Assembly (NCBI GenBank): GCA_016868665.1
Contig: VGGK01000007.1
Span: 1-64,000, forward strand
Direction: 5' to 3'
Length of the DNA stretch: 64,000 nucleotides
DNA from: Chlorobiota bacterium
GTDB taxonomy: Bacteria > Bacteroidota > Chlorobiia > Chlorobiales > Chlorobiaceae
Of the stretch, positions 40,442 to 45,386 are shown piece after piece (the stretch's first letter is position 1; each line of letters starts with the position of its first letter). The notes under the pieces were generated by a model. The model did not search any database, was not told where the DNA came from, and worked only from the letters and a program-made list of their open reading frames with translations. A program made the position numbers and the translations under genes.

Positions 40442-41155
40442 TCAGGCTATTGCCGCGATTTTCAGGAAATTCGTCATCAGAGAGATCCCGGTTCGGGTAT
40501 ACTCCTCCCTGATAGCCTCGAACTGTTCGCAGAGGATATCGCTTCCGGTGTTCTGAAGGTCGGGATCGAGCCTCGACCACTCCGCAAGCATTTCGGCAGT
40601 AAGTTCAAAATGGCACTGCAGCCCATAAGCGTTGGGCCCGACCCTGACAGCCTGGTTCCTGCAATGCCTGCCGACGCCGAGCAGCCGCATCGATCCGGTT
40701 ATGTCAACGGTTTCCCCGTGCAGCTGGAACACACGGAACGACTCCGGCATATTCCCGAACAACGGATCATTTATTCCTTCGCCTGTCAGTTCCATGCGGT
40801 ACGGGCTGTCTTCATGGTCGAAAAAGCCGATCTCCCTTACAGGGCTTGCCGTAACCAGGCCGCCGGCGGCTTTGACCATCACCTGCAACCCGAGGCATAT
40901 GCCGAGGCAGGGCATTCCTGCCTGCAGGGCTCGCCCGGCCATGTCGAGCTCCATTTGCATGGCAGGAGTGTTGTCCTCGGCGCTTTGCGGCCCTCCGAGG
41001 ATGACCAGAGCGTCGCAGGCAAGAGGATCGGGAATCGTATCGCCTCGCGAAATATCGCACACCGTATATGCGACGCAGTGCCTTTCAAGAACAGGTTCCA
41101 GCAGTCCCGGCCCTTCTCTGGCAATGTTCTTGACGATCAGGATGCGTTTACCCAT
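40442..41155 (-). CDS. Class I glutamine amidotransferase (GMP synthase-like)
   Basis: 237-residue stand-alone glutaminase-fold protein. The nucleophile is C87 in MPCLGICLGLQ; the histidine and glutamate of the triad fit AYGLQCHFELT. Proteins of this YfeJ/GuaA-like class transfer ammonia to unknown acceptors. The start ATG lies 8 bp inside the end of the cqsS-like kinase gene, so it is translationally coupled to a signal receptor. No synthetase domain is attached. Confidence 0.85.
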   Translation of the reverse strand: MGKRILIVKNIAREGPGLLEPVLERHCVAYTVCDISRGDTIPDPLACDALVILGGPQSAEDNTPAMQMELDMAGRALQAGMPCLGICLGLQVMVKAAGGLVTASPVREIGFFDHEDSPYRMELTGEGINDPLFGNMPESFRVFQLHGETVDITGSMRLLGVGRHCRNQAVRVGPNAYGLQCHFELTAEMLAEWSRLDPDLQNTGSDILCEQFEAIREEYTRTGISLMTNFLKIAAIA

Positions 41156-44138: not shown

Positions 44139-45386
44139 ATGATCGGAAAAGATGGAAAAATACCGAATGCAGTCAACAACGGCCCGGAAGACCGCTTCAT
44201 CCTCGCAGTTCCGGATTTTCTTGAAAAGCGGTTGAGTGCATTTGAAAAGGAATCCATTCATCCACGCTTCAACGGCAAACCTCTCGTTCTTGGCAGAAAA
44301 CCCGGTACGGATGCCATTATTCTCCAGAGTAACGATTATCTGAATATTTCGATGCACCCCGATATTTCGCACGCCCAGATCGAAAAACTCGAGCAGACGG
44401 GGCAGGATATGGTGATGTCGGCGGTCTTTATGCATGACGGCAGCGACAAGGCGATTTTCGAAGCCGATATTGCCGGGTTCGCCGGATTCGAGAGCGCAAT
44501 TCTCTGCCAATCCGGATGGGCTGCAAACGTAGGCCTCATGCAGGTTATCGCCGACAGCAGCACCCCGGTCTATATCGATTTTCTGACCCACATGTCCCTC
44601 TGGGAGGGAATAAAATCGGCAGGCGCGCCGTTTCATACCTTTCTGCACAACGATGCGGCACACCTTGAAAAACTCATCCAGCGTCACGGACAGGGCATCA
44701 TTCTCGTGGATTCGCTTTACAGTACGACGGGAGACATAGCGCCGCTGGCCGATATCGTCGATATTGCGAACCGATACAACTGCATTTCCGTAGTCGACGA
44801 GTCGCACTCCCTCGGCACCCATGGTCCCGAGGGACGGGGCCTTGTGGCTGCTCTCGGTCTCACCGACAGGGTGCATTTCATCACCGGAAGTCTCGCAAAA
44901 GCTTTTGCCGGCAGGGCAGGCATCATTTTCTGCTCGAAGCGCTTTGCCCAATGCTATCCCTATATGGCTCATCCTGCAATATTCAGTTCCGCTCTCCTGC
45001 CGCACGAAATCGCCGGACTGGCGGCAACGCTGAAAATTATCAGAAAGGGCGACGACCGGCGAAAGAAACTGCATGAAAACGCCATGTACCTGCGTCAAGG
45101 TCTGTTTGATCTCGGATACGCGATCGTCAGCCAGTCGCAGATCATCTCTCTCGAACCCGGCACCGAGCCTGAAACCGAACTGCTCAGAGACGCACTCGAG
45201 GAACGCAACGTATTCGGATCGGTGTTCTGCGCTCCGGCTACGCCGAAGAACAGAGCGCTCATGCGTTTTTCGCTGCACAGCGGACTTCGCAGAGAGGAAC
45301 TCGACCATGTGCTAAGGGTCTGCGAAGAGATCAGGGACGATACAGGCATGTGGAACTGGAAATCGACAAAACGACGCAAAGTATGA
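44139..45386 (+). CDS. cqsA: CqsA-like CAI-1 autoinducer synthase (PLP-dependent)
   Basis: 415 residues, with AAGGAG 8 nt before the ATG. It is a fold-type I alpha-oxoamine-synthase-like enzyme. From memory it aligns along its length with V. cholerae CqsA: ILQSNDYLNI, QSGWAANVGLMQ, YIDFLTHMSLWEG, LIQRHGQGIILVDSLYST, DESHSLGTHGPEG, AIFSSALLP and NVFGSVFCAPAT. The PLP lysine is K254 in TGSLAKAFAGRAG; D220 and H223 lie in the DESHS motif. CqsA condenses S-adenosylmethionine with a fatty acyl-CoA to the CAI-1 precursor. A glycine C-acetyltransferase/BioF role is less likely given the CqsA-specific motifs and the adjacent cqsS. Its stop overlaps a GNAT gene. Confidence 0.9.
   Translation: MIGKDGKIPNAVNNGPEDRFILAVPDFLEKRLSAFEKESIHPRFNGKPLVLGRKPGTDAIILQSNDYLNISMHPDISHAQIEKLEQTGQDMVMSAVFMHDGSDKAIFEADIAGFAGFESAILCQSGWAANVGLMQVIADSSTPVYIDFLTHMSLWEGIKSAGAPFHTFLHNDAAHLEKLIQRHGQGIILVDSLYSTTGDIAPLADIVDIANRYNCISVVDESHSLGTHGPEGRGLVAALGLTDRVHFITGSLAKAFAGRAGIIFCSKRFAQCYPYMAHPAIFSSALLPHEIAGLAATLKIIRKGDDRRKKLHENAMYLRQGLFDLGYAIVSQSQIISLEPGTEPETELLRDALEERNVFGSVFCAPATPKNRALMRFSLHSGLRREELDHVLRVCEEIRDDTGMWNWKSTKRRKV

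Follow-up and report, generated by a model that had tools for sequence, protein, structure and literature searches.

A predicted CqsA/CqsS quorum-sensing pair in a Chlorobiaceae genome and its relation to a family of CqsS-type receptors beside differing candidate synthases

The cqsS/cqsA locus and the synthase

The window analysed here is a whole stretch of 64,000 nucleotides (contig VGGK01000007.1, positions 1 to 64,000, assembly GCA_016868665.1) from a Chlorobiota bacterium of the family Chlorobiaceae, and its subject is a divergent gene pair predicted to make and sense a quorum-sensing signal. The gene cqsS (41148..43691, minus strand) encodes a hybrid sensor kinase of 847 amino acids (aa), and cqsA (44139..45386, plus strand) a 415-aa pyridoxal phosphate (PLP)-dependent synthase of the α-hydroxyketone autoinducer type; the 447 bp between them (43692..44138) are common to both. 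A first-pass annotation, made from the letters alone, had described these two open reading frames (ORFs), quoted motifs from both products that were found again in the translations, and assigned the pair to the Vibrio cholerae CqsA and CqsS families in an apparent green sulfur bacterium. Indeed, the nearest named sequences of the synthase came from Chlorobiota and Chlorobiaceae, including Chlorobium ferrooxidans. The presence of cqsA/cqsS in green sulfur bacteria is already known, and no novelty is claimed for the pair itself: as the annotation had suspected, Chlorobium and Prosthecochloris homologues are named in a passage of PMC5289986 that cites Tiaden 2010, and relevant passages of PMC10158934 report CAI-1 as the only such system found in green sulfur bacterial genomes, with the same two genes always adjacent in Prosthecochloris and others.

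The 415-aa protein is identified as a CqsA-type α-hydroxyketone synthase. It scored 632 bits with NF005526, the equivalog model of α-hydroxyketone autoinducer synthases (cut-off 428), followed by bioF at 225 bits, and its best solved structure was V. cholerae CqsA (PDB 2wk8, 411 bits; next enzyme 151). Residues 24-397 aligned with V. cholerae CqsA without a gap. The predicted PLP lysine, K254 (codon 44898..44900, plus strand), aligned with the lysine of the SLAK motif of that enzyme and was retained in 34/34 distinct Chlorobiaceae and 53/53 proteobacterial CqsA sequences, a count that excludes one fusion protein (L144, below) and two outgroup rows.

A metabolic BioF/Kbl-type acyltransferase beside an unrelated sensor kinase would have the superfamily PF00155 in common with CqsA, and this alternative is very improbable in view of the NF005526 and bioF scores. 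The same genome encodes two more distant superfamily relatives of CqsA (25-28% identity), and it is these that score best with the bioF and serine palmitoyltransferase models of NCBIfam (the latter of the SPT/Kbl type), both under the curated cut-offs. In a quick tree of 74 rows, rooted on these two relatives as outgroup, the 72 CqsA rows were separated from both with a branch support of 100, in agreement with the first-pass family assignment. The window protein fell into a clade of 33 rows (32 Chlorobiaceae rows and one fused protein; support 98), sister to sequences from Vibrio and from alphaproteobacterial metagenome-assembled genomes (MAGs); the joint clade of 39 rows had a support of 100, with a program warning of long branches joining inside the Vibrio/alphaproteobacterial sister group. 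The conserved ligand residues of the kinase, described below, also speak against the metabolic alternative.

Seven of the nine residues that line the acyl pocket of V. cholerae CqsA, as listed in part of PMC3285556, were identical in the window protein; the differences were H30P and F257Y. Position 30 was proline in 32/32 readable distinct Chlorobiaceae sequences (two more were truncated) and histidine in 51/52 readable proteobacterial ones, which marks a lineage difference in the tail pocket. Because of this replacement, the product of the window CqsA may be something other than CAI-1 itself. Co-variation of the acyl pocket with residue 170 of the receptor was looked for and gave no clean pattern.

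A close cqsA (at least 525 bits) was present in 30/86 Chlorobiaceae genomes, four of which carried two copies (G011, G040, G045 and G076; loci within L035-L067), and none was found in a search of viral contigs. In the three two-copy genomes in which both receptors could be read, residue 170 differed between them (A/I in G045, T/M in G040, A/M in G076). As a single case, a MAG contig labelled Cellvibrionaceae (L144:2295-5306) encoded a 1003-aa protein in which a CqsA-like domain is fused to NB-ARC and TPR repeats; asparagine stands in place of the PLP lysine, and a TIR-domain gene adjoins. The fusion nested in the Chlorobiaceae CqsA clade (support 92, long branch) and looks like a STAND-type protein that carries a dead signal-synthase domain.

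Receptor wiring and its candidate output

The domain order of the 847-aa protein was predicted by Pfam, by a scan with home-made profiles and from an AlphaFold model as six-helix sensor-DHp-CA-REC-REC-HPt. Pfam itself returned the HATPase domain, two receivers and the HPt, and the model (mean pLDDT, a local confidence score, 78; pTM, a global one, 0.44) contained six helices at the N-terminus, two receivers of alpha/beta fold and, at the C-terminus, a helical bundle. All features lie on the minus strand. The membrane sensor (residues 1-185; 43137..43691) and the phospho-acceptor H194 (codon 43110..43112) were placed by alignment to V. campbellii CqsS, as were the ligand residues W104, S107, F160, F162, G166 and A170. 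Two receivers, intact by Pfam and alignment, follow, REC1 with D484 (42012..42395) and REC2 with D627 (41607..41960), and then a fused HPt with H785 (41190..41438; PF01627, 47 bits, cut-off 24.6), the counterpart of Vibrio LuxU.

Identity to V. campbellii CqsS (L116) was 34.6% in the sensor, 37.8% in the kinase, 17.4% in REC1 and 39.7% in REC2, and residues 740-847, which hold the HPt, had no counterpart there. The earlier statement that both proteins match their V. cholerae homologues over nearly the whole length thus held for the synthase and failed for the kinase at REC1 and the HPt. Its numbering of the phospho-histidine was borne out: H194 aligned with the residue given as His194 in V. 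cholerae CqsS in a portion of PMC3310172. W104, S107, F162 and H194 were identical in 95/95 CqsS-type kinases of CqsA loci (70 distinct). In V. cholerae CqsS, according to sections of PMC3376566 and PMC5007282, W104 and S107 read the C3 group of the ligand, F162 its head group and residue 170 the length of its tail; the small A170 with G166 in the window protein would fit a long tail. The receptor tree grouped the window CqsS with Vibrio CqsS (100/98), as the first pass had implied, and the protein is accordingly assigned as a CqsS-type receptor.

Among 29 Chlorobiaceae CqsS rows, 23 had the HPt column, and these carried H785 in 23/23, D627 in 23/23 and D484 in 22/23; the other six were four HPt-less receptors of a Chlorobaculum type and two truncated sequences. 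The acidic pair of REC1 was lost and the HPt absent in Vibrio (two rows), alphaproteobacterial and Chlorobaculum-type CqsS. The window pair is therefore best described as a member of a known family in what appears to be new wiring, in which both receivers are intact and the HPt is fused to the receptor, and the label 'Vibrio-type' was dropped for the wiring.

The pair resembles the Vibrio CqsA/CqsS-LuxU-LuxO system in its adjacent genes, the catalytic lysine of CqsA, the residues W104, S107, F162 and H194 and the hybrid receptor, but in Vibrio the HPt is the separate LuxU, the REC1 acidic pair is lost in the two rows compared, the genes are convergent rather than divergent, and position 30 of CqsA is histidine rather than proline. 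These differences bear on the possibility that the locus is an ordinary, described CAI-1 system with molecule and circuit as in Vibrio. Both genes are homologous to those of Vibrio, and green sulfur bacterial cqsA/cqsS are in print in the passages of PMC5289986 and PMC10158934 cited above; the fused HPt, the intact REC1, the contrast at position 30 between Chlorobiaceae (32/32 proline) and proteobacteria (51/52 histidine), and a residue 170 of the receptor that is alanine and not cysteine or phenylalanine make this explanation unlikely. Legionella LqsA/LqsS/LqsR and Janthinobacterium JqsA/S/R likewise have a homologous synthase and sensor but use a separate LqsR or JqsR (parts of PMC3376566 and PMC3566124). 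Most beta- and gammaproteobacterial loci showed this Lqs-like layout, a receiver-less sensor of about 440 aa with a neighbour of about 340 aa, judged by size and position only; it is not the layout of Chlorobiaceae loci, and the window receptor has two receivers.

A candidate output was found in relatives. An NtrC-class regulator (REC-AAA-HTH8) lay 3′ of cqsS and in the same direction in six loci, five of them complete, with a gap of 753-1066 bp, and the sixth cut by the contig end. In the five complete loci the gap held a divergent gene for a conserved 67-85-aa protein (in L048 a 155-aa ORF whose final part is the conserved one), and in 5/5 a sigma-54-like GG-N10-GC site lay on the 5′ side of this gene; it is found at L049:12955-13707 and at equivalent places in L038, L047, L048 and L054. 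Over the 86 genomes, the small protein was found at the six linked loci and, as a weak match (E 0.009), in one cqsA-less genome, next to a related regulator.

The genome of the window contains a sigma-54 gene and an unlinked NtrC-class regulator (G000:C1:18274-19647) with 59% identity to the cqsS-linked one. According to Pfam, it is the only one with a receiver among the five strong sigma-54 activators of the genome. Where the linked regulator stands in the six loci of relatives in the manner of a candidate LuxO-class output, the window's genome has another subclass, unlinked: five cqsA-less genomes hold both subclasses (at most 18 candidates scored per genome), so the regulator on C1 was rejected as an orthologue of the linked one and is taken as a paralogue of a second subclass. 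A regulator of either subclass occurred in 25/26 genomes with Chlorobium-type cqsA, in 13/56 cqsA-less genomes and in 0/4 with Chlorobaculum-type cqsA, counts uncorrected for kinship; exclusivity to cqsS genomes was rejected on account of the 13.

We consider it somewhat likelier than not that the C1 regulator partners the window CqsS. Several results count against this partnership. The C1 regulator is the paralogue just described, regulators occur without cqsA and are missing with the Chlorobaculum type, the divergent small gene was searched for in the window's genome and was absent, and no sigma-54-like site was found by pattern in the window's cqsS-cqsA gap. The same pattern was found in 0/29 cqsS-cqsA gaps scanned, three of which lie between genes of the same direction. 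The rival view, in which the HPt feeds another regulator and the NtrC-class protein is a non-partner, was rated higher because the C1 and the linked regulator are not orthologous, and it now stands only a little short of an even chance: the unlinked position and the 13/56 genomes speak for it, the adjacency of the linked subclass to cqsS in six loci, the 25/26 co-occurrence and the unique receiver of the C1 protein against it. Three HPt domains were found in the window's genome, the fused one of CqsS, one in another receptor and a free 159-aa protein (L229:4408-4887), which could serve the HPt-less CqsS-type receptor of this genome described below.

In the favoured model, CqsA would condense a medium-chain acyl-CoA with an aminobutyrate- or S-adenosylmethionine (SAM)-type substrate to give an α-amino- or α-hydroxyketone, which CqsS would bind through W104 and S107 at the head group and through residues 162, 166 and 170 at head and tail. 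When signal is lacking, phosphate would pass from H194 to D484 and/or D627, on to H785 of the fused HPt, and then to a separate response regulator, for which the C1 protein, acting at sigma-54 promoters, would be the best candidate. What the genes are, which catalytic and ligand residues they keep, how domains and operons are laid out, the exchange at one locus and the placement in the trees are read from the sequences; which molecules are made, which way phosphate flows, and which regulator, with which targets, is the partner we infer. That signal molecule, phosphotransfer and phenotype are predictions of this kind is a further point against the model. Taken together, a CqsA/CqsS quorum-sensing pair with an NtrC-class output, as one branch of a larger Chlorobiaceae family of CqsS-type receptors whose pocket residues differ with the synthase, is nevertheless judged probable.

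CqsS-type receptors beside four candidate synthase kinds

The CqsS sensor domain was present in 46/86 Chlorobiaceae genomes, 16 of which lacked cqsA. From the genes at their side, CqsS-type receptors appear to form a Chlorobiaceae family that stands beside four candidate synthase kinds: CqsA, AfsA (of the A-factor type) with a flavoprotein (class 2), a SAM methyltransferase (class 3) and a hotdog-methyltransferase fusion (class 4).

The class 2 operon consists of an afsA-like gene, a flavin amine oxidase-like gene and the receptor. The AfsA domain PF03756 scored 107-130 bits in the 3/3 proteins scanned (cut-off 24), and PF01593 was found in the one flavoprotein scanned. PF03756 gave 28 matches in 27/86 Chlorobiaceae genomes, and among the 394 genomes of the phylum AfsA occurred only in those 27. 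In 27 of the 28, a CqsS-type sensor match lay 1870-2029 bp away, start to start; in the remaining case the contig ends after the flavoprotein gene, and another contig of the same genome begins with the receptor. With starts taken from the longest ORFs, the afsA and flavoprotein genes overlapped by 1-10 bp in 25/25 readable cases, and the flavoprotein and receptor genes overlapped in 25/26 and were 60 bp apart in 1/26. AfsA was searched for in the window's genome and not found, and a search of plasmids for relatives of class-2 AfsA was also empty; the class-3 methyltransferase and class-4 fusion gave only partial plasmid matches below 60% identity. Genome G020, which has an AfsA-type system but lacks cqsA, consists of one contig of 2,154,946 bp.

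Class 3 comprises six loci with a SAM methyltransferase beside the receptor, two of which define the search profile. The layout recalls that of Ralstonia PhcB/PhcS, in which a methyltransferase gene also lies beside a sensor kinase gene (part of PMC8578825), a comparison made on gene layout. Class 4 comprises 13 loci with the fusion gene directly upstream of the receptor gene, and 11 untruncated receptors of this class had the HPt histidine column. The class-4 locus of the window's genome (L102:13818-17721) has the fusion gene 1 bp ahead of the gene for a second CqsS-type receptor, one with an HPt and A107. A further 20 paralogue regions comprised 12 of class 4, four of class 3 and four with no recognised synthase, one of these cut by a contig end.

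At one locus of 11 Chlorobaculum-type genomes, between prs-lpxD and snoaL-ompA, the receptor was constant and the synthase cassette differed, with AfsA and the flavoprotein in six genomes, the methyltransferase in two and CqsA in three; one genome showed one flank only, single flank genes were missing in a few, and 4/11 had extra genes between lpxD and the receptor. The window pair lies at another locus, where an amidotransferase gene adjoins. Residue 107 differed with the neighbouring enzyme. It was serine in 44/44 CqsA-linked receptor rows and tryptophan in 25/25 AfsA-linked and 6/6 methyltransferase-linked rows, as well as in two partial AfsA-linked receptors outside the tree. The 12 class-4 tree rows were divided between alanine (6) and cysteine (6), and the 20 rows with no recognised synthase had serine (10), alanine (6), tryptophan (3) or cysteine (1).

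In a receptor tree built without the pocket columns, four CqsA-linked receptors of the Chlorobaculum type nested in the W107 clade (30 rows, 100/100) and joined the nearest AfsA-linked rows at 94/72, and the CqsA proteins of these four loci lay inside the Chlorobiaceae CqsA clade. An AfsA-side receptor has thus apparently been paired with CqsA and carries S107. A single clade of all CqsA-linked receptors was rejected in an approximately unbiased test set up after the first tree had been seen (p-AU 0.00093, log-likelihood 62.7 lower).

The interpretation that we hold to have somewhat better than an even chance is that synthases are interchangeable at one fixed receptor locus, namely CqsA for a ketone, AfsA with the flavoprotein for a γ-butyrolactone-like signal that would be sensed at the membrane and not by a TetR protein, and the methyltransferase for a fatty-ester-like signal, that residue 107 is re-tuned when CqsA enters, and that synthase-less S107 receptors in three cqsA-less genomes listen to ketone-making neighbours. 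Such receptors, possible eavesdroppers, were found beside AfsA or methyltransferase systems at L237:5376-7592, L238:9997-12153 and L239:1590-3752.

Against the receptor-family part of the favoured model must be set the post hoc clade test and the small number of independent contrasts: only two such pairs bear on the link between residue 107 and synthase, and although both agree with expectation, a sign test gives p 0.5 and the correlation is not presented as significant. The class-2 enzyme scored 42.7 bits with the ScbA/BarX equivalog (cut-off 200, one protein scanned), and its identity is given by domain only. The methyltransferase lay upstream of the receptor in two class-3 loci and downstream in four, and class 3 may therefore be two things. 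The hotdog half of the class-4 fusion remained under Pfam cut-offs.

Lipid and pigment pathways, too, employ hotdog, flavin-oxidoreductase and methyltransferase domains. This general background, and the presence of lpxD near the exchange locus, favour a reading in which the products of the AfsA, methyltransferase and hotdog-methyltransferase genes build membrane lipids or pigments, and what the receptors sense is these lipids and not a shared signal. We regard that reading as unlikely, since in other species the exchange locus holds CqsA next to a receptor of the same kind, residue 107 differs with the enzyme, and AfsA is given as the first enzyme of γ-butyrolactone signals in passages of PMC5735094. 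The class-2 operon has the AfsA hotdog domain PF03756 in common with the γ-butyrolactone systems of Streptomyces and Rhodococcus (GblA), but the receptors there are TetR-family DNA-binding proteins, according to the same passages, whereas the class-2 neighbour is a membrane CqsS-type kinase.

On the interpretation of exchangeable synthases, the locus would amount to a natural experiment on signal and receptor co-change, with the receptors differing at a residue that mutagenesis in V. cholerae has linked to reading of the head group, and the wider pattern leads one to expect two or more signal chemistries so far undescribed among anaerobic phototrophs. The receptor-family pattern matters more than the pair itself. 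Genes can be deleted in Chlorobaculum tepidum strain TLS. Among the papers listed in searches of the open-licence PubMed Central literature, judged by titles and the starts of abstracts, there was no functional study of green sulfur CqsA/CqsS and no report of AfsA in the group, nor was the fused-HPt wiring or a CqsS family with differing synthases found in these searches; the passages of PMC10158934 on the pair are silent on the HPt wiring and on AfsA- or methyltransferase-linked receptors.

A third CqsS-type receptor of the window's genome (L102:7246-9396) has W107 and F170, no HPt and no recognised synthase adjacent. A lost afsA operon beside it is not claimed; the flanking genes, for proteins of 328 and 329 aa, had no BLAST match in the three class-2 loci compared.

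RNA and promoter searches and neighbouring genes

Rfam returned two tRNAs only, at gathering score, for window positions 36000-52000 around the pair, with no Qrr-like RNA and no family in the intergenic region 43692..44138. Sigma-54-like sites in the window (up to two mismatches) were rejected as a signal, the 25 seen against 25.7 expected being chance. Seven strict sites were found genome-wide, with one for a control pattern; one precedes a gene read as nifH-like, and none of the seven was tied to quorum sensing.

A class-I glutamine amidotransferase gene (PF00117; 40442..41155, minus strand) begins within cqsS, its start overlapping the cqsS stop by 8 bp, and the ORF beyond it falls in a cluster tentatively read as RNase R. 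This amidotransferase family occurred 3′ of cqsS on the same strand in 10/25 Chlorobium-type stretches, including the window, some of the stretches being ended by contig ends. Further homologues (50-52% identity) were seen in L243 and L249, close to receptors that lack a synthase. A class-II photolyase gene, assigned from one protein scanned and not seen at the window locus, was present in 7/25 cqsS stretches of relatives and again in L243.

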